From contig CANQDL010000004.1 in NCBI GenBank assembly GCA_947591105.1, positions 1 to 46,101 of the forward strand: DNA of 46,101 nt, given 5' to 3'. How positions within the stretch are numbered: the stretch's first letter is position 1; each line of letters starts with the position of its first letter. Positions 4,052 through 20,561 of this stretch are shown piece after piece. The position numbers and the translations under genes are program-made. The notes under the pieces are model-generated. The model did not search any database and was not told the origin of the DNA. It saw only the letters and a list, made by a program, of their open reading frames with translations. The DNA comes from an uncultured Oscillospiraceae bacterium. GTDB lineage: Bacteria > Bacillota > Clostridia > Oscillospirales > Oscillospiraceae.

Positions 4052-4064
4052 GGAGGAAGCCTCT

Positions 4065-5732: not shown

Positions 5733-5751
5733 AAAAAGCATAAAAACAGAA

Positions 5752-5781
5752 AGAAGGCTGTCCCGTTGGGGGCAGCCTTCT
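5752..5781. terminator. Bidirectional hairpin between fhs and the minus-strand amidase
   Basis: AGAAGGCTG (5752-5760) pairs with CAGCCTTCT (5773-5781), with three more possible CCC/GGG pairs in the loop. Read on the plus strand it has only a weak T run. Read on the minus strand it is followed by a T-rich stretch (opposite the A runs at 5732-5750), so it should end the long minus-strand block and perhaps also fhs. Confidence 0.75.
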
Positions 5782-5787
5782 CCCTTT

Positions 5788-5858
5788 AAGGAGGAACTAT
5801 CATGACTCAATCCAGAGGTGGGACGGGTCTGTGGTCGTATGCCTGTTCCAGAGAATAG
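5788..5858 (+). other. Stranded ribosome binding site and start codon with an 18-codon remnant
   Basis: AAGGAGG (5788-5794) lies seven bases before an ATG at 5802, an ideal plus-strand translation start just downstream of fhs. The frame beginning MTQSRGGTGLW stops at TAG 5856-5858 after 18 codons. From base 5807 on, the DNA is the 3' end of the minus-strand amidase. The simplest reading is that a gene once following fhs was cut off when the minus-strand block arrived, leaving only its start. A genuine short peptide or chance cannot be excluded. Confidence 0.4.
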
Positions 5859-7270
5859 GCGATCTGAAGCAGGGTGGGCTCCGCGTATGGTCTTGCCATA
5901 AACTCGATGCCGATGGGAACGCCCGCGGGGGCGTCCCCATCCGGCGCGGAGGTTCCGGCAGGAAGGGTAATGGCCGGGAACCCCAGTACGGAGGCCAGAA
6001 TGCCGTTTCGCCCATTCTGTGTACCGCTGGAGATGAGCTCTGCCACGATTTGCTGGTGCGGATAACAAAGAGCGTCCAAATGATTTTTTGCCATCAGGTC
6101 GTATGTGAATTCCCGCACGGCCTGGGCCCGCCGCAGACGGGCCTGGTACGCCGCCTGCTCCAGCGGGTTTTCCAACACGGCGCAGCGAGAGATCTCGTCC
6201 TGCAGGGGCGCGGACAGCTTTCCCGACGCGGCCAACTGCTTCACATCCCGCACGGGGCAGTGGGGGACGGCGGAAAAGTACTGATTCAGCAGCGGGCCCA
6301 ATTCAAAAAACTGCACGTCGCATTCGGCGAACACCCGCCCGCTGTCCAGCTCCGGCGCGTTCAGCGGCACGATCGTTGTGCCCAGAGAGCGCATCCGGTC
6401 AAGGGCGTCGTCCATGGCCGCCAGAACGTCTCTGTCGCTGCCAAAGATGTTGGTGAGCAGGCCGATGCGCTTGCCGCGCAGCCCATCCCGATCCAAAAAG
6501 GCGGTGTAGGGCCTGTCCGGCCGCCGGCCGATCTGCTCGGCGGTCTTTTTGTCCCGGCTGTCATACCCGGCGCAGATGTCCAGCAGCAGGGCCGCGTCCG
6601 AGACGTATTTTGCCATGGGCCCTGCGGTATCCTGGGTGGTGGAGCAGGGCACGATCCCGCTGCGGGAGAGAAGGCCCGTGGTGGGCCGCAGGCCTACCAG
6701 GCCGGTGGCGCTGGCAGGACTGCGCACAGAATTTGCGCTGTCGCTGCCCAGCCCCGCCGCGGCCATGTCCGCGGCCAGGGCCGCGCCTGTGCCGCCGGAG
6801 GAACCGCCGGGGGTGCGCCGCAGATCATAGGGATTGCGCGTCTGGCCGATAAGCGAGCCGAGGGTCAGGCCGTTTCGGGCAAATTCGGAGAGATTTGTCT
6901 TGAGTAAAATGATGGCTCCCGCCTGCCGCAGACGGTCGATCACAAAGGCGTCCCGTGCCGGCCGGCTCCCCGCCAGGGCGGCGGAGCCGGCGGTGGTGGG
7001 CATGTCGGCGGTGTCAAAATTGTCCTTTACCGCCAGAGGGATGCCGTGCAGGGGCGAGAGTACCCGGCCCTGTTTTCGCAGCTCGTCCAGTCTCTTCGCC
7101 TGCTCCAGCGCCCGGGTGTTGACATGGATGACGGCGTTCAGGGCGGAACCCTTCTTGTCCAGACGCTCAACCCGCGCAAGATATGCCTGCACCAGTTGCT
7201 CGGAGGTGGTCTCTCCCCGGCGCAGGGCGTTGCTGATATCGCCGATGCTCTTTCCGATCAACTCCTGCAT
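5807..7270 (-). CDS. Amidase signature family hydrolase (module 1)
   Basis: Hydrolyses an amide bond in a small molecule; the substrate cannot be read from sequence. The protein has 487 residues from the chosen ATG at 7270 (MQELIGKSIGD), which follows the dctM stop by four bases; the longer upstream frame lies inside dctM. The Lys-cisSer-Ser triad of the amidase signature family is visible: Lys in IPLAVKDNF (about residue 81), the cis-Ser region TPGGSSGG (about 152-158) and the nucleophile Ser in SANSVRSP (about 179). No GatB or GatC partner is nearby, so this is not likely to be the Glu-tRNA amidotransferase. It is the last gene of the long minus-strand block, coupled to the TRAP permease, which suggests that the imported compound is its substrate. 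The family is sure; the role is inferred. Confidence 0.9.
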   Translation of the reverse strand: MQELIGKSIGDISNALRRGETTSEQLVQAYLARVERLDKKGSALNAVIHVNTRALEQAKRLDELRKQGRVLSPLHGIPLAVKDNFDTADMPTTAGSAALAGSRPARDAFVIDRLRQAGAIILLKTNLSEFARNGLTLGSLIGQTRNPYDLRRTPGGSSGGTGAALAADMAAAGLGSDSANSVRSPASATGLVGLRPTTGLLSRSGIVPCSTTQDTAGPMAKYVSDAALLLDICAGYDSRDKKTAEQIGRRPDRPYTAFLDRDGLRGKRIGLLTNIFGSDRDVLAAMDDALDRMRSLGTTIVPLNAPELDSGRVFAECDVQFFELGPLLNQYFSAVPHCPVRDVKQLAASGKLSAPLQDEISRCAVLENPLEQAAYQARLRRAQAVREFTYDLMAKNHLDALCYPHQQIVAELISSGTQNGRNGILASVLGFPAITLPAGTSAPDGDAPAGVPIGIEFMARPYAEPTLLQIAYSLEQAYDHRPVPPLD

Positions 7271-7274
7271 GGGC

Positions 7275-8555
7275 CTATTTCCCCAAAAGGTTCGGCAGGA
7301 ACATGACCAGCGGCTCGGCATAGGTGACGATCAGCAATACGATCAGCTCCGCAATGAGCATGGGCACCACCGCGCGCAGCATTTTTCCGAAATCCACTTT
7401 GGAGATCCCCCTGACCACGTAAAGGCACATGCCGACGGGCGGGGTGATCAGGCCGATGTTGATGTTGACGATCATGATGATACCCAGCAGCACAGGGTCA
7501 ACGCCGACGCTGGACATGATGGGCACGAAGATGGGCGTCAGGATCAGAATGGCCGCGTTGGTCTCCATAAAGCAGCCGGCGATCAGCAGAATGCCGTTGA
7601 CGATGAGCAGCAGCAGGTTCTTGTTCTGGGTGACGCTCAGCACGGCGGTGGTGATCCGCTGGGGGATCTGCAGACCGGTCAGCACCCAGGAAACGCTTGC
7701 CGCCACAGCGATGACGATCATAATGGCCGCGGAGCTTATGGCGGAATCGACCGCGATCTGGAAGAGCTCCTTTGCGCTCAGCTGCTTGTACACCAGCACC
7801 TCCAGCAGCAGACCGTATACCACCGCCACCACGGCGGCTTCACTGGGGGTGAAGATACCGCCGTAAATGCCGCCCAAAATGATCAGGGGCATCAGCAGCG
7901 CGGGAAACGCGTGCCAGAAGCTCTTGAGACGATCCTTCCAGGGCAGCTTTTCCGCAACGGGGTACTTGCGCTTTTTCGCGGTGAAGTAGCTCACCACGGC
8001 CAGCGACACACCCAGCAGAATGCCGGGCACAATGCCGCACATGAACAGCGTGGCGATCGAGGCGCCGGAGGCGACGCCATAGACGATCATTGGCACGCTG
8101 GGCGGGATGATAGGCCCCATAACGGAGGCGCTCGCCACCAGGGCGGAGCTGAAATCGTCGTCATAGCCCCTCTCCCGCAGGGTGGGGATCATCATGGCGC
8201 CGATGCAGGCCGCCGTGGCCACGGCGGAGCCGGACAGCGCGGCGAAGAACATACATCCGAGCACTGCCACCATACCGAGGCCGCCCCGCACATGGCCGAC
8301 CAGCGCGTAAGCGAAGTCGATCAGTTTTTTGGAGAAGATGCTTCGACTCATGATGGAGCCGGCAAAGATGAAGAAGGGAATCGCCATCAGGGGGAAGGAA
8401 TCAATACCCGTGAACATCCGCTGCACGATCACCACCGTGGGGAGGGTCGTCTGCATCTTGAGAAGCATCAGGGCCAGAGAGCCAAGCACATACGCAACAG
8501 GCACGCCGCAGATGATCAGAACGATCATGAGCACGCAAAAGATCAAAAATTCCAT
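7275..8555 (-). CDS. TRAP transporter large permease, DctM type (module 1)
   Basis: Large membrane subunit of a tripartite ATP-independent periplasmic transporter, which uses an ion gradient to import substrate delivered by the DctP protein. The protein has 426 residues, the family's normal size, and is almost wholly hydrophobic with about 12 membrane segments. Family words are visible, for example GSAVATAACIGAMMIPTL, LVASASVMGPIIPPSVPM and a late NINIGLITPPVGMCLYV. ATG at 8555 follows GAGGAGA. It lies 30 bases after dctQ and 4 bases before the amidase start. TRAP systems usually carry carboxylates, sialic acids or related anions; the true substrate is unknown. Paralogue of the permease at 11651-12925. 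Confidence 0.95.
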   Translation of the reverse strand: MEFLIFCVLMIVLIICGVPVAYVLGSLALMLLKMQTTLPTVVIVQRMFTGIDSFPLMAIPFFIFAGSIMSRSIFSKKLIDFAYALVGHVRGGLGMVAVLGCMFFAALSGSAVATAACIGAMMIPTLRERGYDDDFSSALVASASVMGPIIPPSVPMIVYGVASGASIATLFMCGIVPGILLGVSLAVVSYFTAKKRKYPVAEKLPWKDRLKSFWHAFPALLMPLIILGGIYGGIFTPSEAAVVAVVYGLLLEVLVYKQLSAKELFQIAVDSAISSAAIMIVIAVAASVSWVLTGLQIPQRITTAVLSVTQNKNLLLLIVNGILLIAGCFMETNAAILILTPIFVPIMSSVGVDPVLLGIIMIVNINIGLITPPVGMCLYVVRGISKVDFGKMLRAVVPMLIAELIVLLIVTYAEPLVMFLPNLLGK

Positions 8556-8585
8556 ACTATGTCTCCTCTCATTCCGATGTGCCCG

Positions 8586-9077
8586 TCACTCGGCCTTGCT
8601 GTCGTTCTTTTTCGCGGAAAGGATCTTTTTTACATACTTTTCCACGATGTAATACAGCGCCACAAGCGCGCCCACCGGCAGGGCCAGATATACCAGGCCC
8701 ATGGGGATGCCGATGGCGGGGGAAGTCTGACGCATGGTCGCGCTCACCAGCGTAAAGCCCTGCCATACCGTAAAGCCGGAGAAGAACGCGACCACCGCGT
8801 CGGCGAAGAACACAAATCCGTTGTAGACCGCCTTTGGAAGACGTCTTACGACGTCTTCCATGGCGATATGTGCTCCTTTTTTGATGGCGTACCCTGCTCC
8901 CACAAAGGTCATCCACGCCTGCAGGTACCTGGCAGACTCCTCTGTCCACGAAAGGGACATATTGATGAAATAGCGGAAGATAATCTGTAGGAGAACAAGG
9001 CCGGTCATAACGATTAGAACCGTACCCAGAAGTATCTCCAGCGCCTTGTCCAGAACGCTTTTTTCTGAATTATGCAC
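8586..9077 (-). CDS. TRAP transporter small permease, DctQ type (module 1)
   Basis: Small membrane subunit of the TRAP importer, pairing with the large permease encoded just downstream. The protein has 163 residues and about four membrane helices, with the family's typical RYFINMSLSWTEESARYLQAWMTFVGAGYAIKKG region (quoted in part: W-EE-AR then G-A-Y-AIKKG, about residues 38-68). The start is a GTG at 9077 with AAAGGA nine bases upstream; no in-frame ATG fits better. It follows dctP after a 75-base gap that contains an intercistronic hairpin. Identification rests on size, topology, the W/E/R motif and neighbours. Confidence 0.9.
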   Translation of the reverse strand: MHNSEKSVLDKALEILLGTVLIVMTGLVLLQIIFRYFINMSLSWTEESARYLQAWMTFVGAGYAIKKGAHIAMEDVVRRLPKAVYNGFVFFADAVVAFFSGFTVWQGFTLVSATMRQTSPAIGIPMGLVYLALPVGALVALYYIVEKYVKKILSAKKNDSKAE

Positions 9078-9093
9078 GTCTCATCATCCTTTC

Positions 9094-9132
9094 AAAAAAC
9101 GCTGCTTCGTACAATCTAACCGTTCCCGAAGC
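9094..9132 (-). terminator. Intercistronic hairpin between dctP and dctQ (module 1)
   Basis: On the minus strand GCTTCG (opposite 9127-9132) pairs with CGAAGC (opposite 9104-9109), then a run of six T (opposite 9094-9099) follows. The short stem suggests partial termination or 3'-end protection of the abundant dctP message. The second module has a comparable hairpin in the same place. Confidence 0.55.
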
Positions 9133-9152
9133 CACAAATCTTTATTTATGGG

Positions 9153-10133
9153 TTACTCGACAGCCTGAATCTCGGCGATCAGATCCGCGCCGAACTCCTC
9201 GGCGTACTTGTCGTAGATCGGCTGCACGGCCTCACGCCAGACCTTCGGATCGGTCTCGTTGATCTCGACGCCCAACTGCTCCAGCTGATCCAGGCACTCC
9301 TCGTCAGCCTTCTGGCACAGCTCTCTCTGATAGTCGATGGCCTTGTCCAGCGCCTCCTGGACGATCTGCTGCTGCTCCTCGGACAGGCTGTCCCAGGCCT
9401 TGTTGGAGATGGTCACCGCGAAGGGATCCCACACGTGGCCGGTCAGGGACAGATAGGGCTGCACCTCATAGAACTTGGAGGACACGATGGTGACAAGGGG
9501 GTTCTCCTGGCCGTCCACGGTCTTCTGCTGCATGGCGGTGAACAGCTCGCCGAAGGCCATGGCGGTGGGGTTGGCGCCCAGACCCTCAAAGGTGTCCAGC
9601 ATGACGGGGATCTCAGGAGTACGGATCTTGATGCCCTCCAGATCCTCGGGCACCACGATGGGTCTCTTGGAGTTGGTGATGTGGCGGAAACCGTTCTCAT
9701 AGGAACCGAGGATCTTCACATCGGCGTCGATGCAGCTGTAGATCTCCTCGCCGATGGGGCCGTCCAGAACCTCATAGGCGGCTTCCCGGCTGTTGAAGAG
9801 GAAGGGCAGGAAGAACAGCTGCAGCTTGTCGTTGTACACCCGCAGACCGCCGGTGCCCAGCAGAGCCATCTCCATGGTGCCCAGTTCCAGACCCTCGGCC
9901 ATATCGCGCTCGCCGCCCAGCTGGCTGTTGGGGTACAGCTGGATCTCTACCGCGCCGTTGGTCTTTTCCAGAACCTCGTCGGCAAACTGCTTGCTGGCGA
10001 TATAGTTGGGGTGATCTTCGTTGTTGGTGAAGCCCAGCTTCAGGACGATGTGCTCGTCGTCAGCCAGAGCGTAGGAGCTCACAAGTGCGGTGAGCATGAT
10101 GAGCGCAAGGAGAAAAGCAAAAATACGTTTCAT
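9153..10133 (-). CDS. TRAP transporter substrate-binding protein, DctP family (module 1)
   Basis: Extracytoplasmic receptor that binds the substrate and hands it to the DctQ/DctM permease. The protein has 326 residues from ATG 10133, chosen because it begins a clean signal peptide (MKRIFAFLLALIMLTAL, cleavage probably after YALA) and has AAAGGA upstream. Family features include the N-terminal LKLGFTNNEDHPNY strand, VEIQLYPNSQLGGERDMAEGL, and the RTPEIPVMLDTFEGLGANPTAMAFGE region (shown in part) with the Arg that usually contacts a substrate carboxylate. There is no lipobox, unusual for a binding protein of a Gram-positive cell; it may be held by the permease or lightly retained. The signal peptide and 5' leader are almost identical to those of the second DctP (13549-14547), although the mature proteins differ strongly. 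Confidence 0.94.
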   Translation of the reverse strand: MKRIFAFLLALIMLTALVSSYALADDEHIVLKLGFTNNEDHPNYIASKQFADEVLEKTNGAVEIQLYPNSQLGGERDMAEGLELGTMEMALLGTGGLRVYNDKLQLFFLPFLFNSREAAYEVLDGPIGEEIYSCIDADVKILGSYENGFRHITNSKRPIVVPEDLEGIKIRTPEIPVMLDTFEGLGANPTAMAFGELFTAMQQKTVDGQENPLVTIVSSKFYEVQPYLSLTGHVWDPFAVTISNKAWDSLSEEQQQIVQEALDKAIDYQRELCQKADEECLDQLEQLGVEINETDPKVWREAVQPIYDKYAEEFGADLIAEIQAVE

Positions 10134-10220
10134 TTTTATCAATCCTTTCTTTTTCGTATTGTTTTTGCTTGCTCTGATGGGTGCGCGCGGGTACAGTGTT
10201 TTTTCCGGCCTCACCTCCAT
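10134..10220 (-). repeat. Conserved dctP leader, copy 1
   Basis: The bases upstream of this dctP align, with few changes, to those upstream of the second dctP (14548-14638). Shared blocks are GGAGGTGAGG, AAAACACTG, AAGCAAAAACAA and AAAGGA just before the ATG. The similarity runs on through the signal-peptide codons and then fades. It points to duplication or exchange of a leader and secretion unit. Confidence 0.75.
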
Positions 10221-11626
10221 GCGTATACCGGAAGGCCGGTTTGACTGTATACCGACTCCAGTTGATAGGCTATGCGGTAGAGCAGCCGCTCGTCGAATTC
10301 CTTGCCGAGAAGCTGCAGACCAATGGGAAACCCGTTGTCCGTCATGCCGCAGGGAATGCTCAAGGAGGGGAAGCCCAGCCCGGTGCTGTAGATGGTATAG
10401 AGGCTGAACATGAGAAACAGGGGATACATCTTTCCGTTTACTTCCACCTCCCGGGCGTTGATGGGGGAGGGGAGCATGGGCACGGTGGGCATGATCCACA
10501 GATCCACATCCTCCATGCTCCGGCGCACCATGTCCTTAAACTGCCGGGCGAGCTTTTGCGCCTCCACATATTCCCAGGCGGCGCAGTCCTTGCCGCTGCT
10601 CATGTGCTTGCGCGTTTCCGGGAAGAAAAGATCGGGCACCTGATCCAGATTTTTCCGGTTGTTGGCATATATCTCGGAGATACGTATGACCTGGAACGCC
10701 TGGTTGTATGTCCTGTCCGGATCGGGGTCGGGCACCTGCCGCAGGGTGGCGCCCATGTCCGTGAGAAGGTTTATCGCGCTGTCCACCGCGTCCCGGATGC
10801 GCCTGTCGGCGCTGTCGGCGTAGAGCACTCTGGGCACGCCGATGGTGAGATCATGCAGGGGCTTTTCGATGTCCGCGGTGTAGTCCTGCCGGGGCACATC
10901 CGCGGAGCCGGGATCACGGGGATCATACCCGGCCATGACGGTGAGCATGATGGCGTTGTCCCGCACCGTTCTGGTCATGGGGCCAACGCAGTCCACGCTG
11001 TCGCTGGCGGGATATACCCCATAGCGGCTGACAAGACCGAAGGTCGGACGCATACCCACCACGCCGCAGATGGCGCTGGGGATGCGCAGCGAGCCGGAGC
11101 AGTCTGTGCCCACGGAGGCCGGGCAGGCGTGCACGGCCAGGGCCGCGGCGTTGCCGCCGCTGGAGCCGCCGGGGATCATCTCCGGGTCAAAGGGGTTCCG
11201 GATGGGGCCGAAGATGGAACGGTCGCATGTGGCCGCGCTGGCAAACTCATGGGTATTCAGCTTGCCCAGCAGCACGGCGCCGGCCTGCTCCAGACGATCC
11301 ACGACGGCGGCGTTGTAATCGGGGACAAAGTCCTGATAGATGCGGCTGCACATGGTGGTGCGCACGCCCTTTGTATAGATGACGTCCTTCATCCCGTAGG
11401 GAATGCCGTCCATTGGCCCCAGCGGCGCTCCCTGACGGAACCGGGCCTCTGACTGGCGGGCCTGGGACAGCGCCAGCTCATCGCTCACGGTCGCCCAGGC
11501 GTTTATATCCTTGCGCTGTCCGATGACCTCCAGCAGCCGCTGGGTGACCCGAACAGGGGAGAGAGAACCGTCCCGATATTTGGCGGCCAGTTCACTGATG
11601 GAGAGTTGTTCGATCGTTGTGTCCAT
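10211..11626 (-). CDS. Amidase signature family hydrolase (module 2)
   Basis: Second amidase of the block, 471 residues, diverged from the one at 5807-7270 but with the same architecture. Lys in GIPYGMKDVIY (about residue 80), PGGSSGGNAAA (about 150) and the nucleophile Ser in TDCSGSLRIPS (about 177) form the Lys-cisSer-Ser triad. ATG 11626 follows AAGGGGGA. It lies 24 bases after dctM of module 2 and just before dctP of module 1, so each transporter is followed by its own amidase. Two transporters and two amidases suggest related but distinct amide substrates or two steps on one. The substrate is unknown. The absence of GatB/GatC argues against a role in tRNA amidation. Confidence 0.9.
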   Translation of the reverse strand: MDTTIEQLSISELAAKYRDGSLSPVRVTQRLLEVIGQRKDINAWATVSDELALSQARQSEARFRQGAPLGPMDGIPYGMKDVIYTKGVRTTMCSRIYQDFVPDYNAAVVDRLEQAGAVLLGKLNTHEFASAATCDRSIFGPIRNPFDPEMIPGGSSGGNAAALAVHACPASVGTDCSGSLRIPSAICGVVGMRPTFGLVSRYGVYPASDSVDCVGPMTRTVRDNAIMLTVMAGYDPRDPGSADVPRQDYTADIEKPLHDLTIGVPRVLYADSADRRIRDAVDSAINLLTDMGATLRQVPDPDPDRTYNQAFQVIRISEIYANNRKNLDQVPDLFFPETRKHMSSGKDCAAWEYVEAQKLARQFKDMVRRSMEDVDLWIMPTVPMLPSPINAREVEVNGKMYPLFLMFSLYTIYSTGLGFPSLSIPCGMTDNGFPIGLQLLGKEFDERLLYRIAYQLESVYSQTGLPVYAWR

Positions 11627-11650
11627 TTACATTCCCCCTTCCGCCGGCGG

Positions 11651-12925
11651 TCAATTCAGCAGTGTGGGCAGCAGCATGGAAAACGCCGGGACATACGTGA
11701 CCAGCAGCAGTACCAGCAGGCCCATGAGGAAGAACGGCAGACAGGATTTGAACACGCCGCCGATACCAGCTTGCCCTATTTTGGAACCGACCAGGATGGA
11801 TACGCCCACAGGCGGCGTGATCACGCCCAGGTTGATATTGACGGAGCAGATCATGCCGAACTGGATCAGATCCATGCCCAGAGACTTGATGAGGCTGAGC
11901 ATCAGGGGCACCATCATAACCAGAATGGCGGTGGAATCCATCAGGCATCCGAGGATCAGCAGGATGATGTTGATGATGATCAGTATGACGACTTTGTTCG
12001 AGGTGAGGCCGGTCATGAACTCCATAAACAACTGGGGAAGCCTGTCCGCGATGACCACGTAGGACGACGCCTTGGAGATACCGATCAGGATCATGATGGT
12101 GGCGACCGAGACGGCGGAGGTGAACAGAGCGTTGCACAGCTGCTTAAAGGTCATTGTCCGGTACACGAACATATTGATGACGACGGAATAGATGACGGAA
12201 ACGGCGGCAGCTTCGGTGACCGTGCAGATCCCGGCGAAAATGGAGCCGAGCACGATAATGGGCATCAGCAGCGCCCATATGCTGCCCCGAAGGGTGCGGG
12301 CGATCTGCTTTCCGGAGGCCTTTTCCTGCCGGGGCAGGTTGTGCCGTTTGCCGTAGATCAGGCAGTAGCCCAGAAACAGTACGGCCAGCAGCAGCGCCGG
12401 CGCTATTGTGGCGATGAATAGCTTTTGTACGGATGTCTCGGTCAGGCTTGCGTAGACGATCAGCACGATCGACGGCGGCACAAGCGGCCCTAACACCGAG
12501 GAGCTTGTGGCGCATCCGGAGGCGAAATGGCGGTCGTAGCCATTCTCGATCATGGCGGGGATGGTCATACCGCCAATGGCGGCGCAGGTGGCCACAGCGG
12601 AGCCGGAGATGGCGCCGAACAGGGCGGAGGCCAGAACGGTCACCGCGGCCAGGCTGCCGCGCACCCGCCCCAACAGGACGTTTGCCGTGTCCAATAGCTT
12701 TTGCGTTATACCAAAGGACATGACGTTGCCTGCCAGGATGAACAGGGGGATCGACAGCAGCGCCGAGGAGTTCAGACCCGAGAAGGTCTTTTGTACGATG
12801 ACCTCCATGGGGAAGCCCGCCGAGGCGAGTCCCGCCATGGTGGCAATGCTGATTGCCAGATAGATGGGCAGGCCGAGGAGGGATAAAACCAGAAGCAGAA
12901 TGAAAACGAGCAGTCCTGCGTTCAT
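11651..12925 (-). CDS. TRAP transporter large permease, DctM type (module 2)
   Basis: Large membrane subunit of the second TRAP importer. The protein has 424 residues and about 12 hydrophobic segments. It shows SGSAVATCAAIGGMTIPAM, SSSVLGPLVPPSIVLIVY and NINLGVITPPVGVSI, the counterparts of the motifs in the first permease. ATG 12925 overlaps the dctQ stop (ATGA) and is preceded by AAAGGAGGAG, so the two permease genes are translationally coupled. In module 1 the same two genes are instead separated by 30 bases. It works with the DctQ at 12922-13443 and the DctP at 13549-14547. Confidence 0.95.
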   Translation of the reverse strand: MNAGLLVFILLLVLSLLGLPIYLAISIATMAGLASAGFPMEVIVQKTFSGLNSSALLSIPLFILAGNVMSFGITQKLLDTANVLLGRVRGSLAAVTVLASALFGAISGSAVATCAAIGGMTIPAMIENGYDRHFASGCATSSSVLGPLVPPSIVLIVYASLTETSVQKLFIATIAPALLLAVLFLGYCLIYGKRHNLPRQEKASGKQIARTLRGSIWALLMPIIVLGSIFAGICTVTEAAAVSVIYSVVINMFVYRTMTFKQLCNALFTSAVSVATIMILIGISKASSYVVIADRLPQLFMEFMTGLTSNKVVILIIINIILLILGCLMDSTAILVMMVPLMLSLIKSLGMDLIQFGMICSVNINLGVITPPVGVSILVGSKIGQAGIGGVFKSCLPFFLMGLLVLLLVTYVPAFSMLLPTLLN

Positions 12926-13443: not shown

Positions 13444-13476
13444 ATCATCTCCCGATATGTTGTACATAAAACGAAG

Positions 13477-13515
13477 GCAGCCGCACCGGTCAGCATCACC
13501 GAACGGCGCGGCTGC
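13477..13515 (-). terminator. Intercistronic hairpin between dctP and dctQ (module 2)
   Basis: GCAGCCGC (13477-13484) pairs with GCGGCTGC (13508-13515) across a 23-base loop, between the end of dctP and the start of dctQ. On the minus strand only a weak TTTT run follows. It is probably an mRNA-stabilising or partly terminating element that keeps binding protein above permease, as in module 1. Confidence 0.5.
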
Positions 13516-13548
13516 GGATATCACGTGTGTGCGCCGTCAGACGGCGGC

Positions 13549-14547
13549 TTATTCGGCAGCGGGATCAGCGGCGGCGATCAGCTCGGCGTACTCCATCAGG
13601 TAGGGGTACTTTTCCTCCAGGAAGCCGTCCATGGCGTCCATCCACTCGGAGATGTCGGTCTCGATGATGGTGCAGCCGGCGTCCACGAACACCTGCTTTT
13701 TCTCCTCGGTCAGCTCGATGGCCAGATCGGTCAGATACTTGGTGGCCTCGTCGGCGGCCTCGGCGATGGCGGTCTGGTATTCCTCGGGCAGATTGTTGAA
13801 GTAGGTCTCGTCAAAGGTGAAGGTGTCGGTGCCGTAGACGTGGTTGGTTTCGGTCACGTACTTGCAGCAGTCCTGCATGGACAGACCCACGGAAGCGCCG
13901 TAGGGGTTTTCCTGCCCGTCCACCTGACCCTGCTGGATGGCAGTGAAGGCGTCAGCGGCGGCGATGGGGGTGGGCGTGGCGCCCAGCCAGGACCAGGTGT
14001 CGATGTACATGTCGGAGGTGGGAACCCGCAGCTTCAGGCCCTTCACGTCCTCAACGGAGTACACGGGGGTGTTGGTGGTGGTCACGCGAACGCCCTGCAG
14101 GCCCGCGCCCAGCAGCACCTTGCCGCTCTCCTTGCCGATGTCCTCCAGGATCTTCTTGCCCACTTCGCCTTCCCAGACGGCCCGATAGTGGTCGATGCTG
14201 GAATACAGATAGGGGGCGGCGTTCAGGTTGGCAAGCTTGCTCCAGGCGGCCAGGTTGTCGATGGGGTCGAATACGATGTTGCAGATGCCGATAGACAGTC
14301 CCTCGATGCAGTCGGCGCTGGTGCCGAGAGCGGAGTTGGGGTACAGCTCGATCGTGACCTTGCCGTCAGTCTTTTCATTGACCAGCTCTGCAAACTTTTC
14401 GCCTGCGGTGTAAACGTAGTCAGAAGTACCGCAGTTCATGTGCATCTTCATGGTCATCTCTTCCAACCCGTCATCAGCCAGGGCGTAAGTGCTCATAAGC
14501 GCGGTGACCATAATGAGCGCGAGGAGAAAAGCAAAAATACGTTTCAT
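13549..14547 (-). CDS. TRAP transporter substrate-binding protein, DctP family (module 2)
   Basis: Receptor of the second TRAP importer, 332 residues. The signal peptide MKRIFAFLLALIMVTAL ending in YALA is nearly identical to that of the first DctP. The mature part shares only the family framework: KVTIELYPNSALG, LKLRVPTSDMYIDTW with its Arg, GATPTPIAAADAFTAIQQGQVDGQENP (in part, about residues 185-210). Start ATG 14547 has AAAGGA ten bases upstream. The divergence of the binding faces suggests that the two receptors do not recognise the same ligand. It has no lipobox. It follows the gene of unknown function at 14639-15274 after a 91-base leader. Confidence 0.94.
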   Translation of the reverse strand: MKRIFAFLLALIMVTALMSTYALADDGLEEMTMKMHMNCGTSDYVYTAGEKFAELVNEKTDGKVTIELYPNSALGTSADCIEGLSIGICNIVFDPIDNLAAWSKLANLNAAPYLYSSIDHYRAVWEGEVGKKILEDIGKESGKVLLGAGLQGVRVTTTNTPVYSVEDVKGLKLRVPTSDMYIDTWSWLGATPTPIAAADAFTAIQQGQVDGQENPYGASVGLSMQDCCKYVTETNHVYGTDTFTFDETYFNNLPEEYQTAIAEAADEATKYLTDLAIELTEEKKQVFVDAGCTIIETDISEWMDAMDGFLEEKYPYLMEYAELIAAADPAAE

Positions 14548-14638
14548 TTTGTTCGGTCCTTTCTTTCTAATTTATTTTTTTGTTTTTGCTTGGTCTGACG
14601 GTTTCGCGGCCCAGTGTTTTCCCCATCCTCACCTCCAG
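14548..14638 (-). repeat. Conserved dctP leader, copy 2, with a possible 19-codon leader frame
   Basis: Counterpart of the leader at 10134-10220. In this copy GGAGG (14632-14636) lies five bases before an ATG at 14626 that opens a 19-codon frame ending with TAG at 14567-14569. Copy 1 has no ATG at that point, so translation of this mini-frame is doubtful. The conserved GGAGGTGAGG may instead matter for RNA structure or reflect shared descent. Confidence 0.55.
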
Positions 14639-15274
14639 TTAATCTGCGGGTGCGTCCGCCATGGCCTGGAACAGCTTCGCGCCCCGGGCGGGGTTGAACG
14701 CGCCGCAGATGCACAGCTTGCAGACAGACTCGGACGCCTGCTCCGCCGTCTCCAGTCCCTTGCGGATGCGATTTACATGGTACAACACCATTTCTCCTGT
14801 GATCATACCGTGGCCGCACATGGTGGTGATCTCCCGTTCCTTGTCGCCCACAAGCTTTTCCCGCTTGCCAAACACGCCCAGCGACATGTTCACGGTGTGA
14901 ACCTTCAATCCCACCTGCTCGCAGCAGGCGGCCACTTCATCCATGAGCCCGGACACGACCACGCTCATGCCCAGATCTTCCTTCTTCAGCGCCTGGAGAA
15001 AGCCGATCAGGTTCTTCTCGTCGTCAAAGACCACCAGGCATACGCAGCCGTCGTCGGTCTTGTTGACGATGGTGTCATAGTCGAAAGCGGGCAGAGCGCC
15101 GGTGTTCTTGTTCTCGCCGATGTTGACGGGGTGGAACTGGCGCGCCAGCTCGAAATAGCGGCGGAATTTGGGGCCGGAGCCCTCCACGTTGTGGCCCTGG
15201 GCGGCCATGGTCAGGACGACAAAGTCGTTTTTCAGACTCTCCACGGAGCCCTCTCTGTGCAGTGTGTGAGACAT
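14639..15274 (-). CDS. Conserved Cys-motif protein of unknown function
   Basis: I do not recognise an experimentally known family. The 211-residue soluble protein starts MSHTLHREGSVESLKNDFVV and has an alpha/beta look. Its C-terminal third holds TMCGHGMITGEM (about residues 150-161) and a CKLCICGAFNPARGAKLF motif (about 184-201), that is C-x2-C-x-C plus one earlier Cys, which could bind a metal or an iron-sulfur cluster. ATG 15274 follows TAGGAGGAG. It sits 16 bases after the ferredoxin-domain gene, and the pair lies directly behind the pyruvate:ferredoxin oxidoreductase. That suggests that the two work together in electron transfer or in activating or processing the imported compound. This is inference from position only. 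Confidence 0.7.
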   Translation of the reverse strand: MSHTLHREGSVESLKNDFVVLTMAAQGHNVEGSGPKFRRYFELARQFHPVNIGENKNTGALPAFDYDTIVNKTDDGCVCLVVFDDEKNLIGFLQALKKEDLGMSVVVSGLMDEVAACCEQVGLKVHTVNMSLGVFGKREKLVGDKEREITTMCGHGMITGEMVLYHVNRIRKGLETAEQASESVCKLCICGAFNPARGAKLFQAMADAPAD

Positions 15275-15290
15275 ATGTTCTCTCCTCCTA

Positions 15291-15995
15291 CTACTTGTCT
15301 ACATGGCCGAGGCCCACGTTGTTTTTGCCGTTGGGACGGTACCAGATGCCCGCCTTGTCCAGGATCTCGCGGGCGTCGTTGGTGCCGTCCTCGTTGTTGA
15401 CGCACACCACGTCCAGACTGAACACCGTATCCAGCTGGTCTGCCGCGGCGATGAGCGCCTCCACGTTCTCCTGGAGCCGGTCGATGGGCACGGTCACCTC
15501 GATGATGCCGGAGATCACCCGCTCGTCCAGAATGGAGGGGTCGATCTTGCCGGTGGAGCGGTCGACGATGTAGCTTGTGATGGGGTTGCAGTCCTCAAAC
15601 TCGGCGCCGTGCTGGGCGAATACCTTCGTCATCTTTTCCAGGTCGCGCAGGGTGGAGGACACCTGGGGGCGGCCCATCTCCACGGCGATGCCGGCATAGC
15701 CCTTCTTAAAGCGGCCGGTGACATCGTTGGTTTTCATCTCCTCCGTGCCGCGGCCGTTGACGCCCCGGTATACCGTGGTCACATCGCTCATCTGGGAGCG
15801 CACCACCCGGGGCCAGGTCAGAGGCACCTTTTGCAGCGCGTCCCGGGGGCAGACCTTCGCCCGCTGGCAGTTGGCGCATTCTGTGCACAGATCCTGGTCA
15901 ATGACGGCTTTTTTGTTCACGACCTGGATCGCAGAGACCGGACAGTAGATCCGGCACATGCCGCAGCCAACACATTTTTCTGCATCAACAATCAT
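15291..15995 (-). CDS. Two-cluster ferredoxin-domain protein with a C-terminal domain of unknown function
   Basis: The protein has 234 residues. The N-terminal part carries two Cys sets, CVGCGMCRIYCP (about residues 8-19) and CTECANCQRAKVCP (about 37-50), typical of a 2[4Fe-4S] ferredoxin although the second set has one extra residue in the last gap. The remaining 170 residues (GRFKKGYAGIAVEMGRPQVS onward, then VISGIIEVTVPIDRLQENVEAL) look like an alpha/beta ligand-binding or ACT-like domain that I cannot name. ATG 15995 follows AAAGGAG. It lies 51 bases after nifJ, so it may accept electrons from that enzyme, or serve as an electron donor to its neighbour at 14639-15274. The ferredoxin part is sure; the rest is not. 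Confidence 0.8.
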   Translation of the reverse strand: MIVDAEKCVGCGMCRIYCPVSAIQVVNKKAVIDQDLCTECANCQRAKVCPRDALQKVPLTWPRVVRSQMSDVTTVYRGVNGRGTEEMKTNDVTGRFKKGYAGIAVEMGRPQVSSTLRDLEKMTKVFAQHGAEFEDCNPITSYIVDRSTGKIDPSILDERVISGIIEVTVPIDRLQENVEALIAAADQLDTVFSLDVVCVNNEDGTNDAREILDKAGIWYRPNGKNNVGLGHVDK

Positions 15996-16046
15996 TTTGT
16001 AGTCTCCTTTACGTTTAATCTGTGGGTTTACGGTGATGAAAGCGCG

Positions 16047-19000
16047 TCAGTCGGCCCCGCCGGCCAGACGTCGGTACTGCGCCAGACGCTCGTCTGCGTC
16101 GGCGGCCGCCTTGGCATACAGGGTGTCCGCTGTCTCGGGGAAGGAGAGTTTCAGCGCGGCATAACGGTTCTCCCCCTGTAAAAACGCCTGCAGATCGCCG
16201 GAGGGCGCCTTGGAGTCCAGCTGGAAGGGATTCCTGCCTTGGGCTTTCCTGTCAGGATCAAAGCGATACAGGTGCCAGTATCCGGCCTCCACGGCGCGCT
16301 TTTCCTCCAGCTGGCTAAGTCCCATGCCGCACTTCATGCCGTGCTCGATGCAGGGGCAGTAGCAGATGACCAGGGAGGGGCCATTGTAGGCTTCCGCCTC
16401 CCGGATGGCCCGCAGCGTCTGTGCCGGGTCGGCGCCCATGGCGACCTGCGCCACGTACACGTAGCCGTAGCTCATGGCCATCATGCCAAGATCCTTTTTC
16501 CCGGTCACCTTGCCGCCCGCGGCAAACTTTGCGATGGCGCCCGCGGCGGTGGCCTTGGAGGACTGGCCGCCGGTGTTGGAATAGACCTCCGTGTCCAGAA
16601 CCAGGATGTTGATATCCCGGCCAGAGGCGAGAACATGATCCAGCCCGCCGTAGCCGATGTCGTAGGCCCAGCCGTCGCCGCCGAAAGCCCACACGCTCTT
16701 TTTGGTCAGATATTCCCGATTCTGCCGGATGAAGGCAGCCTCTTCGCTCTTGTCACCCTCCAGAGCGGCCAGCAGCCCATCGCTGACGGCCCGGGAGAGA
16801 GCGGCGTCGTTGCCGTTGGCCAGATAGGCCCGGCACGCCTCCGGGGCCACGCCCCGCTCTGCCAGCGCCGTGACCTTTTGGGCCAGCTGGCGCTTGACGG
16901 CGTCCTGCCCCAGCAGGTAGCCGTAGGCGTACTCGGCGTTGTCCTCAAAAAGGGACATGGCCCAGGCGGGGCCGCATCCGTTTTGATCGGTGCAGTAAGG
17001 AGAGGAGGGAGTGGAGCCGCCGTAAGCGGAGGAACAGCCGGAGGCGTTGGCGATATACATCCGCTGGCCGAACAGCTGGGTGACCAGCTTGATGTAGGGG
17101 GTCTCGCCGCATCCGGCGCAGGCGCCGGAAAACTCAAAGTACGGCTTGGCAAACTGGGAGTTTTTCACCGTCCTGTCGTTGACGGCGTCGGCCTTGATGG
17201 CCACATCCTCTACCCCGAAATGCCAGTTCTCCGCTTGCGCCAGCTGGGAGTCCAAAGAACGCATCACCAGGGCCTTCTCCTTGGCGGGGCAGACGTTCAC
17301 GCAGCTGCCGCAGCCGGTGCAGTCGTAGGGGGACACCTGCACCCGGTACTGATACTTGCCCAGGCCGGCGCCGGAGGCCTTTTTCGTGAGGAAATCCGCC
17401 GGGGCGCGCCGGGACTCTTCTTCATCCAGAAGAATAGGCCGAATGGCGGCGTGGGGGCAGACCAGAGAGCACTGGTTGCACTGTATGCAGTTATCAGCCA
17501 GCCAGGCGGGCACCTCTACGGCCACGCCCCGTTTTTCGTATTTCGTGGTGCCGGCGGGCCAGGTGCCGTCCTCCAGCCCGTATTTTTTCAGCGCGCCCAC
17601 GGAGAGCCGGTCGCCCTGCTGACGATTCATGACGTTGACGATGTCCCGGATGAAGGCGGGTGCGTCGTCCGGGGCCTGCTCGTCCGAGGCGTTTGCCCAC
17701 TCGGCGGGTATGGCCACCTGATGCAGGCCCTCCAGACCGTACTGGATGGAGACGATGTTCCGATCCACCACTGCCTGACCCTTCTTCTTGTAATAGGTCT
17801 TATATATGGCGTCCTTCATCTCTTCCACGGCCTGGTCGAGGGGGATGACCCCGGTCAGCTTGAAAAAGGCCGCCTGCAAAATGATGTTGGTACGGCTGCC
17901 CAGCCCAAGGGAGCGGGCGATGCCAATGGCGTCGATGGTGTAAAACCGCGCGTGCTTTTTTGCCAGGGCGCGCCGCATCTCCGCGGGAAGATGGCTTTCC
18001 AGCGCGCTGTCGCTCCAGGGACAGTTGAGCAGAAATATGCCGCCGCTCTTCAGGTTTTGAAGCATATCGTACTTGCCCACGTAGGAGGGGGCGTGGCAGG
18101 CCACAAAGTCGGCGCTGTTTACCAAATAGGGCGCGCGGATGGGCTCCTTGCCGAAGCGCAGATGGGATTGGGTAAGGCCGCCGGACTTTTTGGAGTCGTA
18201 GACGAAATAGGCCTGGCAGTAGAGGTCTGTGGAGTGGCCGATGATCTTGATGGAGTTCTTGTTGGCGCCGATTGTCCCGTCGGAACCCAGTCCCCATATT
18301 TCCGCGCTGGACTGGCTGGCGGGAGGCGGCACCGTCACATCCGGAACCGGCAGGGAGGTGAAGGTCACGTCGTCCACGATGCCCACGGTGAAGCTGTTTT
18401 TTGGTTTCTCCTGATCCAGGTTGTCAAAGACAGCCAGGATGTGGGCCGGCGTGGTGTCCTTGGAGCTGAGGCCATAGCGGCCGCCGTATATCTCCGCCGG
18501 CAGGCTGTTCTCCCCGCAGACAGCGCGCACGTCCTGGTAAAGGGGCTCGCCCATGGCGCCGGGTTCCTTTGTCCGATCCAGCACGGCGATGCGGCGCACG
18601 GTGGAGGGCAGGGCCGCCAGGAAGTGACGGGCGGAGAAGGGTCGATAGAGATGCACGTTGATAAGGCCGGCCTTTTTCCCCTGGGAGAGCAGGTGATCCA
18701 CTGCCTGCATGGCGGTCTCCGCCGCAGAGCCCATTAGGATCACGACCTGCTCCGCGTCGGGCGCGCCGTAGTAGTCAAAGATATGGTATTCCCGGCCGGT
18801 GAGACGGGATATCTCGCCCATGTAGTGTTCTACGGCGTCGGGGATCTGGCCGATCTTCTCGTTGCACGCCTCCCGGCACTGGAAGAAGATGTCCGGATTG
18901 ACCGTGGTGCCGCGGGTGGCCGGATGCTCCGGATTGAGGGCGTGACGGCGGAAGGCGCGCAGCGCGTCCATATCCACCAGGCCCCGCAGATCCTCATAGT

Positions 19001-19559
19001 CCAGAGCCTCGATCTTCTGTATCTCGTGGGAGGTGCGGAAGCCGTCGAAAAAATGGAGAAACGGCATCCGGCAGTGGATGGCGGCCAGATGGGCTACCGC
19101 CCCCAGATCCATGACCTGCTGGGGCGAGGAGGAGGCCAGCAGGGAAAAGCCCGTGCTGCGTACAGCCATCACGTCGGAGTGGTCGCCGAAAATGCTCAGC
19201 GCGTGGGAAGAGAGGGTGCGGGCAGAGACATGGAACACGCCCGGCAGCATCTCCCCGGCGATCTTGTACATGTTGGGGATCATGAGCAGCAGACCCTGGG
19301 AGGCGGTATAGGTAGTGGTCAGAGCGCCGGACTGCAGGGAGCCGTGAACTGTCCCGGCGGCGCCGCCCTCTGACTGCATCTCCACCACCTGTACGGGCTG
19401 GCCGAACAGATTCTTTTTTCCGTTGGCAGCCCACTCGTCCACATGCTCCGCCATAGGGGAGGAGGGGGTGATGGGGAAGATGCCAGCTACTTCTGTGAAT
19501 GGGTAGGAGATATAGGCAGCGGCCTGGTTGCCGTCCATAATTTCGATCATCTTGCTCAT
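16047..19559 (-). CDS. nifJ: Pyruvate:ferredoxin (flavodoxin) oxidoreductase
   Basis: Oxidatively decarboxylates pyruvate with CoA to acetyl-CoA and CO2, reducing ferredoxin. The single chain has 1170 residues from ATG 19559 (MSKMIEIMDGNQA, SD GAGGGA); an upstream TTG at 19574 is less likely. Domains in order: the pyruvate-binding domain with FPITPSSPMAE and the VSARTLSSHALSIFGDHSDVM Arg loop, the domain III/II region, the EKR region, two [4Fe-4S] sets CIQCNQCSLVCP (about 690) and CTGCGSCVNVCP (about 745), and the TPP domain with CAGCGETPY, GDGWAYDIGYGG (about 960) and EVYSNTGGQ. The Thr, Arg and Asn known to contact pyruvate are kept, so pyruvate is the likely substrate. It is the first gene of the minus-strand catabolic block, behind a regulated promoter. 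Confidence 0.97.
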   Translation of the reverse strand: MSKMIEIMDGNQAAAYISYPFTEVAGIFPITPSSPMAEHVDEWAANGKKNLFGQPVQVVEMQSEGGAAGTVHGSLQSGALTTTYTASQGLLLMIPNMYKIAGEMLPGVFHVSARTLSSHALSIFGDHSDVMAVRSTGFSLLASSSPQQVMDLGAVAHLAAIHCRMPFLHFFDGFRTSHEIQKIEALDYEDLRGLVDMDALRAFRRHALNPEHPATRGTTVNPDIFFQCREACNEKIGQIPDAVEHYMGEISRLTGREYHIFDYYGAPDAEQVVILMGSAAETAMQAVDHLLSQGKKAGLINVHLYRPFSARHFLAALPSTVRRIAVLDRTKEPGAMGEPLYQDVRAVCGENSLPAEIYGGRYGLSSKDTTPAHILAVFDNLDQEKPKNSFTVGIVDDVTFTSLPVPDVTVPPPASQSSAEIWGLGSDGTIGANKNSIKIIGHSTDLYCQAYFVYDSKKSGGLTQSHLRFGKEPIRAPYLVNSADFVACHAPSYVGKYDMLQNLKSGGIFLLNCPWSDSALESHLPAEMRRALAKKHARFYTIDAIGIARSLGLGSRTNIILQAAFFKLTGVIPLDQAVEEMKDAIYKTYYKKKGQAVVDRNIVSIQYGLEGLHQVAIPAEWANASDEQAPDDAPAFIRDIVNVMNRQQGDRLSVGALKKYGLEDGTWPAGTTKYEKRGVAVEVPAWLADNCIQCNQCSLVCPHAAIRPILLDEEESRRAPADFLTKKASGAGLGKYQYRVQVSPYDCTGCGSCVNVCPAKEKALVMRSLDSQLAQAENWHFGVEDVAIKADAVNDRTVKNSQFAKPYFEFSGACAGCGETPYIKLVTQLFGQRMYIANASGCSSAYGGSTPSSPYCTDQNGCGPAWAMSLFEDNAEYAYGYLLGQDAVKRQLAQKVTALAERGVAPEACRAYLANGNDAALSRAVSDGLLAALEGDKSEEAAFIRQNREYLTKKSVWAFGGDGWAYDIGYGGLDHVLASGRDINILVLDTEVYSNTGGQSSKATAAGAIAKFAAGGKVTGKKDLGMMAMSYGYVYVAQVAMGADPAQTLRAIREAEAYNGPSLVICYCPCIEHGMKCGMGLSQLEEKRAVEAGYWHLYRFDPDRKAQGRNPFQLDSKAPSGDLQAFLQGENRYAALKLSFPETADTLYAKAAADADERLAQYRRLAGGAD

Positions 19560-19623
19560 AGATCCCTCACTCAATCATAAAGATTTGCCCGCAGGAAGCC
19601 GTAAATGGTGAAAACTGGAACGT

Positions 19624-19692
19624 TTGAATGCAACTAATATCTATCAAATGGATGCGCAGGAATTACATGGAATTATCACGGATTGCATTCAA
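19624..19692. promoter_or_regulatory. Pair of dyad sites in the nifJ leader
   Basis: TTGAATGCAA (19624-19633) and its exact reverse complement TTGCATTCAA (19683-19692) lie 49 bases apart. Each is itself a short dyad of the form TTG-N4-CAA. The second would sit at about +5 to +14 of the nifJ transcript, the first further into the leader. They may be operators for the divergent GntR regulator, perhaps with looping, or could form an RNA stem. Confidence 0.5.
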
Positions 19693-19703
19693 TCTTGATG
19701 AAA

Positions 19704-19732
19704 AATATAGCACAGCTTGTTGGATCTGTCAA
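19704..19732 (-). promoter_or_regulatory. Promoter of the nifJ-TRAP-amidase block
   Basis: On the minus strand TTGACA (opposite 19727-19732), a 17-base spacer, then TATATT (opposite 19704-19709). This is close to the sigma-A consensus and predicts a start near 19697, leaving a leader of about 140 bases before nifJ. Confidence 0.85.
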
Positions 19733-19736
19733 CAAG
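19716..19736. promoter_or_regulatory. Operator-like dyad over the -35 box
   Basis: CTTGTTG (19716-19722), seven bases, CAACAAG (19730-19736): a perfect seven-base inverted repeat that covers the -35 box of the minus-strand promoter. A protein bound here would block transcription. The divergent GntR/FCD regulator at 19892 is the obvious candidate. Confidence 0.6.
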
Positions 19737-19817
19737 GCTGGGCGGAATAATGGAACAAGTAGTGCAATTTTGTCAAAAAGACGGAGTTTATATCGAAAAA
19801 TTGTGCATAACTACCAA

Positions 19818-19847
19818 TTGACTCTGCGTTATAGGATATAATATCAT
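19818..19847 (+). promoter_or_regulatory. Candidate promoter of the GntR regulator gene
   Basis: TTGACT (19818-19823), an 18-base spacer, TATCAT (19842-19847). A better -10 word, TATAAT at 19837-19842, is only 13 bases from the -35 box. The region is AT-rich, and the start would lie about 35 bases before the coding region. Confidence 0.45.
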
Positions 19848-19891
19848 TTAATAATAAAAGTACCTCAGCCAAAGGAGCGATCATCAGAAAT

Positions 19892-20539
19892 ATGTTGCCA
19901 CAGGGTGAAATCGCGTATCGGCAGATCAAGGATATGATTTTCCACATGAGATTTTTACCGGGGAACCATATTTCGGCGCTCCAACTGTCCAAGGAACTGA
20001 AGGTGAGCCGCACGCCGATCCATGAGGCGATACGTCAGCTGGTGGCGGAGGGACTTGTGGTGAGCAGCCCTAACAAGGGCGCGTCGGTGCGGTTCTTCTC
20101 GGAGGATGAGATCCAGGAGATCGGCACGATCCGTTTGCAGCAGGACATCCTCTCCAGCCAGCTTGCCTCATATTACGGCAGTATGTCGGATTTTGAGCGG
20201 CTCTATGATCTGGCCAGCACCTGCGAGCAGTTTGCCTCCCAGGGCGATGTGTACGGACGTATCTTTAAGGACATTGAGTTTCATATGGGCATTGCGGAGT
20301 TGTCCGGAAACTCGCTCTTGGTCAAGCAGCAGCATATCGTCTATCAGCAGATCGCGCTGATCCAGATCTACAAGTACACGGACATACAGGACAGTCTGCG
20401 GCAGATCTATCACCACCGTCTTATCGTCGACGCCATCAAGGCGGGGGATCTGAACATGATCCGGAGCCTCTGCTGTCAGCATCTGGGCGATTTCTATTCT
20501 ATCTCCCCCTACGTTTTGAAGTGCTGCAAGGGTGAATGA
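19892..20539 (+). CDS. GntR family transcriptional regulator, FCD (FadR-like) type
   Basis: DNA-binding regulator of 215 residues. The N-terminal winged helix-turn-helix reads GEIAYRQIKDMIFHMRFLPG, then LSKELKVSRTPIHEAIRQLVAEGLV (in part, about residues 33-58), the classic GntR motif. The all-helical C-terminal FCD domain follows, with FHMGIAELSGN and the HHRLIVDAIKAGD motif near the end; such domains usually bind a carboxylate and often a metal. It is transcribed away from nifJ, with dyad operators between them, so it probably controls the catabolic block in response to its substrate or product. One oddity: AAAGGAG (19871-19877) is 14 bases from the first ATG, longer than usual, and no closer in-frame start exists. 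Confidence 0.92.
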   Translation: MLPQGEIAYRQIKDMIFHMRFLPGNHISALQLSKELKVSRTPIHEAIRQLVAEGLVVSSPNKGASVRFFSEDEIQEIGTIRLQQDILSSQLASYYGSMSDFERLYDLASTCEQFASQGDVYGRIFKDIEFHMGIAELSGNSLLVKQQHIVYQQIALIQIYKYTDIQDSLRQIYHHRLIVDAIKAGDLNMIRSLCCQHLGDFYSISPYVLKCCKGE

Positions 20540-20561
20540 TTTCCCGCCGAACACAAATAGC

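Follow-up and report, generated by a model that had tools for sequence, protein, structure and literature searches.

The question raised by the locus described here is which pathway could unite a pyruvate:ferredoxin oxidoreductase (PFOR), a cysteine-rich protein pair and two importers, each accompanied by an amidase, in one block of genes. The locus lies in a stretch of 46,101 nt (the whole of which is called the window below) of contig CANQDL010000004.1 from an uncultured Oscillospiraceae bacterium (assembly GCA_947591105.1). Eleven genes are tightly packed on the minus strand, from position 19559 down to 5807, in the order nifJ, FDX234, X211, DctP1-DctQ1-DctM1-AMI1, DctP2-DctQ2-DctM2-AMI2, and a gene for an FCD-type GntR regulator stands opposite on the plus strand. 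The positions and types of all eleven minus-strand genes and of the GntR gene, as given in a preliminary description of this DNA, were confirmed.

The wider interest of the block is the iron–sulphur (Fe-S) pair FDX234-X211; the block itself is rare. It is conceivable, although we would rate it at somewhat less than an even chance, that the pair represents a new class of Fe-S enzyme that consists of two subunits, is wired to ferredoxin and acts on small carboxylates, without any described relative by sequence or by fold; record titles place it in at least eight phylum-level groups. In the window, this enzyme would be linked both to a PFOR of its own and to the hydrolysis of amides.

The FDX234-X211 pair

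FDX234 (15291-15995, minus strand), which gave Fer4-type matches only, is composed of a 2[4Fe-4S] ferredoxin domain and an uncharacterised C-terminal domain (C-domain) of about 175 aa, and its uncharacterised partner X211 (14639-15274, minus strand) is 211 aa long. The alignment of FDX234 comprised 51 rows, i.e. 52 non-redundant relatives minus L044 and L084, plus the window. Eight Cys residues of the N-terminus, making up two four-Cys cluster motifs, are invariant in all 51 sequences, as befits a 2[4Fe-4S] ferredoxin, and so are the polar residues R63, R66, R82, E86, K88, N90, E106, R109 and K224. In X211 (61 rows, from 62 relatives, with L084 and L085 left out), the invariant residues are H6, R7, D17, H126, C153, C188 and C190. 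The cysteines among these suggest a cluster with an open site; their number, exactly three, would suit an aconitase-type open cluster, but no fold relative of X211 was found in the PDB.

No match to X211 was found in Pfam, NCBIfam or the PDB sequences, and scanning the 61 X211 sequences and 45 of the 51 C-domains member by member gave no consistent Pfam or NCBIfam match. The AlphaFold models are confident (pLDDT 93 for X211 and 89 for FDX234), and neither matched a PDB fold at E 0.001 or better; in Foldseek, the ferredoxin part of FDX234 superposes on ferredoxins with an rmsd of about 2 Å over 55-60 columns (E about 0.01). A proline-racemase-like chemistry for X211, hinted at by an MCGHG motif (NF052296, E 0.0093, 2 of 61 members), and a relation of the FDX234 C-domain to glycerate kinase (2b8n, E 0.0025) were both discarded as too weak. 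In a Dehalococcoides-type metagenome-assembled genome (L015:7864-9987), a Fer4_20 plus Pyr_redox_2 unit is placed between the ferredoxin domain and the C-domain of the FDX protein.

The preliminary description had left the Cys-rich pair at 14639-15995 unexplained, and beyond the ferredoxin domain it indeed matches no described family. The pair is still uncharacterised, but must now be regarded as a conserved, widely scattered gene family with recurrent neighbourhoods of its own, devoid of functional annotation in Pfam or NCBIfam.

Distribution and neighbourhoods of the pair

Neighbourhoods were compared in a sample of 102 loci (L004-L008, L009-L087 and L129-L148 minus L130 and L137, which are copies of L025 and L023), which leaves out the window's own L001-L003. 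Some of these loci share one genome (e.g. L132-L136, or L009 and L019), and some neighbours may have been read in the wrong frame, since the open reading frames (ORFs) were predicted automatically and the genomes are rich in GC. The list of relatives holds the best 80 of 102, representing 79 distinct loci, all within this sample. By record title, the 79 loci belong to Bacillota, Chloroflexota, Acidobacteriota, Rokubacteria, Gemmatimonadetes, Synergistaceae, Deltaproteobacteria/Syntrophales, Acidimicrobiia and Sphingobium. With the own genome included each time, X211 was found in 6 of 200 genomes of the family, in at least 2 of 394 of the order (at E 1e-20) and in at least 26 of 398 of the phylum, the last two counts being lower bounds because few candidates were scored per genome.

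Up to seven copies of the pair occur in one genome, in different gene contexts. Both FDX and X211 are present at 90 of the 102 loci. Of the remaining 12, several lie on short contigs or depend on uncertain gene prediction, and in L004 a transposase gene separates the two genes. In the family genome G082 (L160:10367-12963) an IS110-type transposase lies between them and only a 132-aa N-terminal nifJ stretch upstream; judging from the sequence, this is probably a decaying copy. In a Bathyarchaeota genome (L017), the X211 relative stands alone, with no FDX C-domain match in the genome, and the ORFs upstream of it (540 aa and 97 aa) have no Pfam match.

The most frequent neighbours in the operon of the pair are carboxylate-type transporters (49 of 102 loci). 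Ferredoxin-linked redox genes (PFOR/Por, AOR, CODH-like, FNOR-type) were found at 13 loci, a count that leaves out a fumarate-reductase-type class seen at two loci, and amide hydrolases (amidase-signature amidase, amidohydrolase, M20/M42) also at 13; the classes used do not take in PF04199 cyclases or permeases outside TRAP, TctABC, MFS and GntP. Other copies have Ldh_2, 3-hydroxyisobutyrate-type dehydrogenase, PdxA, FAA hydrolase, TctABC, MFS and GntR genes beside them. Because the transporters vary between loci, the binding proteins beside different copies could reveal to which chemical class the substrate belongs, and this orphan family is thereby open to direct testing.

Within the family, the gene next upstream of FDX is of a ferredoxin-linked type in five of the six genomes with X211: nifJ in the own genome, a nifJ remnant in G082, PorAB in G136 and a CODH-like gene in G119 and G023, which represent one genus and hence are not independent. 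In the sixth genome, G100, the contig extends no more than 604 bases upstream. It should be noted that the CODH-like proteins match PF03063 only partly (that of G023 by similarity only), so that a CODH activity is no more than a candidate. CODH-like proteins are encoded upstream of the pair in L161, L164, L138, L144 and L042, and a flavoprotein oxidoreductase gene follows X211 in L161, L138 and L144, or lies between the CODH-like gene and FDX in L042.

Recurrence and origin of the block

The whole block recurs at only one of the 102 loci, L009, by its record title from Lachnospiraceae bacterium RGIG2725 (goat omasum). It contains GntR, nifJ, FDX, X211 and the two TRAP-amidase modules, module 2 coming ahead of module 1, and its proteins are 52-83% identical to those of the window. 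Because L009 carries the same eleven genes and a divergent GntR, a chance grouping is disfavoured. The earlier idea of a single block with a single regulator is supported. The preliminary description had proposed that finding the genes rarely together would tell against a common pathway; literally, they are rarely together, but L009 disfavours chance as the reason.

NifJ (16047-19559, minus strand; the ORF extends to a TTG at 19574) is a full-length, single-chain PFOR (TIGR02176, 1807 bits against a cut-off of 911). It resembles other members of this family throughout its length and differs from them in being an extra paralogue tied to a catabolic block. More NifJ stretches are present elsewhere in the own genome, and since the block copy is closer to nifJ of L009 (78% identity) than to its own-genome paralogue on contig C23 (57%), it belongs with the block.

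Full-length FDX234 was found in the own genome only, among 35 genomes of the genus (completeness 64-97%); it was not found in the 34 others, where the best matches had E 8e-10 or weaker and those listed are short Fer4 stretches. On this count, a core pathway of the genus was rejected. In three of eight congeners (L179, L180 and L182), fhs on the left flank and the SpoU-type methylase gene on the right flank are about 2.3 kb apart, versus 16.5 kb in the window. In the other five, no methylase gene was detected in the stretch that was fetched, and none of the eight stretches gave a tblastn match to any protein of the block. The GC content is 0.56-0.63 in 2-kb windows over positions 6001-21000, whereas it is 0.655-0.69 at positions 1-5000 and, for the most part, 0.64-0.68 at 21001-31000. 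Values of 0.60-0.63 also occur at 32001-36000, however, so that GC alone is weak evidence of transfer. No plasmid-borne copy was found with FDX234 and the Sphingobium pair as queries.

The conservation of the content in a distant host, together with the swapped modules, points to horizontal transfer rather than chance as the source of the rarity. The block thus has the appearance of a coherent unit, rarely met with and acquired by transfer, and it seems that a gut bacterium has acquired one switchable block for importing and degrading two kinds of amide-bearing organic acids.

Proposed function and alternatives

The reading that we favour, to which we would nevertheless give a little less than an even chance, is that of a horizontally acquired, GntR-controlled island in which the import of amide-bearing acids is joined to a reductive, ferredoxin-wired FDX234-X211 enzyme fed with electrons by PFOR. 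An inducer would relieve repression by GntR, and the TRAP systems would import two related carboxylates bearing amide or lactam bonds, which the amidases would cleave with release of ammonia. Low-potential electrons would pass along the two [4Fe-4S] clusters of FDX234 to X211. The cysteine trio of X211 could hold an open-site cluster, and the pair would reduce either the carboxylate that was imported or what hydrolysis makes of it. PFOR would obtain the electrons from pyruvate, some of which may itself derive from the substrate, resulting in an internally balanced fermentation. The canonical PFOR of the preliminary description is retained, whereas its role as the terminal step of an oxidation through pyruvate needs revision: on account of the ferredoxin half of FDX234, and of the ferredoxin-linked enzymes beside some other copies, a role as the electron partner of the pair is at least as likely. 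If the proposal is correct, the block would represent a new anaerobic gut route for amide- or lactam-bearing acids, and the redox function of the pair a new ferredoxin-dependent reaction in the anaerobic carbon metabolism of gut and sediment.

Several observations weigh against this proposal. No ferredoxin-linked redox gene is present in the operon at 89 of the 102 loci, none of the 13 loci that have one is acidobacterial by record title, and the Sphingobium locus also lacks one; low-potential electron supply is therefore not universal. In L010, L011 and L047, which have Oscillospiraceae-type names, the genes upstream of FDX are transporter, SDR, amidohydrolase or DUF1932 genes rather than redox genes, although L010 has a nifJ about 5.4 kb beyond its second pair. 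Among the 102 loci, L009 is the only one in which amidase-signature genes are found with the pair. The within-locus control, in which in-operon genes exceed the other genes for transporters (82/390 versus 20/910), redox genes (19/390 versus 6/910) and C-N hydrolases (16/390 versus 5/910), is inflated, as its reference families had been chosen among the genes of those operons. Similarly, the correlation between FDX and X211 distances in a mirror-tree analysis (r = 0.88 over 104 pairs, kept within length limits and with identical pairs dropped; shuffling the 38 pairs within 14 multi-copy genomes or loci gave a mean of 0.81, and 0 of 2000 shuffles reached 0.88), although it counts in favour of the proposal, is also expected from the co-inheritance of adjacent genes. 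Finally, the cluster of X211 is deduced from three cysteines, and the catalytic residues and cofactor of the pair are putative.

Some of these facts would suit a non-redox function. The pair could be an Fe-S enzyme that acts on hydroxy- or sugar acids as a hydro-lyase or isomerase, with an aconitase-like open cluster in X211 and a ferredoxin domain that has a structural role, PFOR merely oxidising the pyruvate produced. We consider this possible but rather unlikely. The neighbourhoods of other copies (Ldh_2, PdxA, FAA hydrolase, TctABC and others) do resemble hydroxy- and sugar-acid catabolism, and the exactly three invariant Cys of X211, the scarcity of redox genes and the occurrence of copies in groups that are usually aerobic agree with it; on the other hand, the eight invariant ferredoxin cysteines point to electron flow, which the enzymes adjoining the pair in some loci and the fused Fer4_20/flavoprotein unit of L015 also argue for. 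Owing to this unit and to the ferredoxin-linked upstream genes, a ferredoxin-wired reductive enzyme is favoured over a hydro-lyase, though not strongly. A different, improbable enzymatic role is the reduction of N-heterocycles, in which heteroaromatic or lactam carboxylates would be imported, their ring reduced by the pair with ferredoxin electrons, and the lactam opened by the amidases. In nicotinate fermentation, 6-hydroxynicotinate reductase reduces the ring with ferredoxin electrons; the likeness to the block is conceptual, in that ferredoxin-type electrons are used and a cyclic amide is hydrolysed afterwards. This role would account for four structurally unrelated amide-related families occurring with the pair, namely amidase-signature amidase, amidohydrolase and M20/M42 (the 13 loci mentioned above) and a PF04199 cyclase (L162), and for the operon of L011, where the pair is found with CoA-ligase-domain, AllG, AllH, amidohydrolase, M42 and amino acid kinase genes. 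However, 89 of the 102 loci have no amide hydrolase, and no NCBIfam model named 6-hydroxynicotinate reductase appeared among the matches. In addition, a search of 289 genomes from the class to which Sphingobium belongs detected the C-domain in two, that of Sphingobium included (short ORFs of 292 and 357 aa), although the reductase is reported from Bradyrhizobiaceae and Azorhizobium in the accessible text of PMC3511419.

Two further explanations deny the pair an enzymatic function or the block a common one. That FDX234-X211 is a mere electron-transfer adaptor for PFOR and other oxidoreductases appears quite improbable: the ferredoxin domain and the ferredoxin-linked enzymes adjoining some copies would be expected of such a protein, but the numerous invariant polar residues of the C-domain and of X211 are of the kind found in active sites, and the commonest neighbours are carboxylate transporters. 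Very improbable, in our opinion, is a chance assembly of unrelated cargo that shares no pathway. The failure to find FDX234 in the other 34 genomes of the genus and the single recurrence of the block would fit this, whereas the same eleven genes and divergent GntR in L009, with their modules swapped, and the same operator-like motif in the corresponding gap do not.

Importers, amidases and substrate

Module 1 is composed of the TRAP solute-binding protein DctP1 (13549-14547; PF03480, 222 bits), the small permease DctQ1 (12922-13524, with the start likely near 13443), the large permease DctM1 (11651-12925; PF06808, 363 bits) and AMI1 (10211-11626; PF01425, 360 bits), and module 2 of DctP2 (9153-10133; PF03480, 310 bits), DctQ2 (8586-9077; PF04290, 114 bits), DctM2 (7275-8555; PF06808, 407 bits) and AMI2 (5807-7276, in an ORF extending to 7321; PF01425, 333 bits), all on the minus strand. 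DctQ1 was assigned by similarity to DctQ2 (E 4e-12) and to a DctQ of L009 (63% identity), not by a library scan. A recent duplication of the modules is ruled out by their gene-by-gene identities (37, 28, 40 and 31% for P, Q, M and amidase), and on their sequences the two are old paralogues, i.e. long-diverged importers and hydrolases. Stretches of 112 nt at the start of the two dctP genes (10055-10166 and 14469-14580), which take in the ribosome-binding region and signal peptide, are 83% identical, as against 37% for the proteins, and look like a shared or converted leader; the dctP leaders of L009 differ from those of the window and are lipoprotein-like by eye.

The P, Q and M components of each set are encoded together, as in DctP-type TRAP systems, and the arginine motif of carboxylate-binding receptors is kept in both DctPs (LRVP in DctP1, IRTP in DctP2); according to the accessible text of PMC4646407, this arginine pairs with the carboxylate of the substrate. 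In their complete P/Q/M sets, their arginine motif and the divergent FCD-GntR, these genes resemble TRAP operons with a catabolic enzyme and a GntR regulator, but they differ in that two non-identical sets stand in tandem, an amidase-signature hydrolase accompanies each of them, and PFOR and the Fe-S pair are present as well. A hydrolase beside a TRAP or TTT transporter is not new in itself, since the example gene organisations in the accessible part of PMC5812351 include an amido-hydrolase gene. The same part describes Bordetella DctP receptors crystallised with pyroglutamate, a lactam carboxylate; these are TRAP receptors like DctP1 and DctP2, and no linked amidase-PFOR block is mentioned there. 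A literature search for the ingredients of the block, at the level of titles and the beginnings of abstracts, found no paper on such a block.

AMI1 and AMI2 both match PF01425 over the full domain, with aligned Lys, GGSSGG and nucleophile-Ser regions, which have catalytic roles in the amidase-signature family. Each scored under the curated cut-off of all 25 NCBIfam models shown for them, those of AtzE, PRK06169 and GatA included in the case of AMI1. The best PDB match of AMI1 was GatA, followed by others including biuret hydrolase, and that of AMI2 was the peptide amidase 1m21; they can be described as AtzE/biuret-hydrolase/GatA-like and peptide-amidase-like, respectively. AMI1 is not GatA itself (TIGR00132, 327 bits against a cut-off of 481), and its neighbours are TRAP genes, not gatB or gatC. 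The own genome, in an assembly 78% complete, has only two PF01425 matches, both in the block, and no separate GatA was seen.

That each importer has one amidase, as the preliminary description had it, is supported by L009, where the order of the modules is reversed and their content kept. Since whole modules are swapped with DctP-DctQ-DctM-amidase intact, there is good evidence, from gene order, that importer and amidase form a functional unit. Among 299 other genomes of the family, AMI1-like proteins were found in none at E 1e-90 and AMI2-like proteins in three at E 1e-70 (L158, L159 and L156). No TRAP gene adjoins the latter, within long flanks in L158 and L159 and a short one in L156, and so no further TRAP-amidase pairing was found. 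The AMI2 relative of L159 (genome G177) lies in a cluster of CoA-ligase-domain, AllG, PF04199, amidase and AllH genes at positions 5045-11881; the CoA-ligase-domain genes here and in L011 are presumably of the FdrA type. This context, along with the pair operon of L011, is a loose indication that the substrates are carboxylate-bearing nitrogen compounds of the ureide or amide type, and does not support any single compound.

Regulation

The genes of the block overlap slightly or are separated by up to about 100 nt, according to which starts are chosen; the starts are likely over-long in the ORFs of amidase 2, DctQ1, DctP2 and nifJ. Two terminator-like sites lie on the minus strand, the number of terminators being at the level of chance (10 versus 10.9), so that co-transcription of the eleven genes is plausible. 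The strong promoter postulated ahead of the block was found as a promoter-like site at 19732-19704 (minus strand), which would drive nifJ and the genes after it: TTGACA-17-TATATT, with an extended TG, agrees with the consensus at 11 of 12 positions and is the best such site of the region.

The divergent regulator (19892-20539, plus strand) has the GntR helix-turn-helix and the FCD domain (PF00392 and PF07729) of the FCD-GntR class and is 53% identical to the divergent GntR of L009. The box TTGNATNCAA occurs only twice in the window, at 19683-19692, just downstream of the promoter, and at 19624-19633, both in the gap between GntR and nifJ; two copies were reached in 4 of 100 shuffles. The corresponding gap of L009 also has two copies, and a third is found in L009 at 3074. 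TTGNATNCAA is a recurring palindromic box and a candidate operator for GntR.

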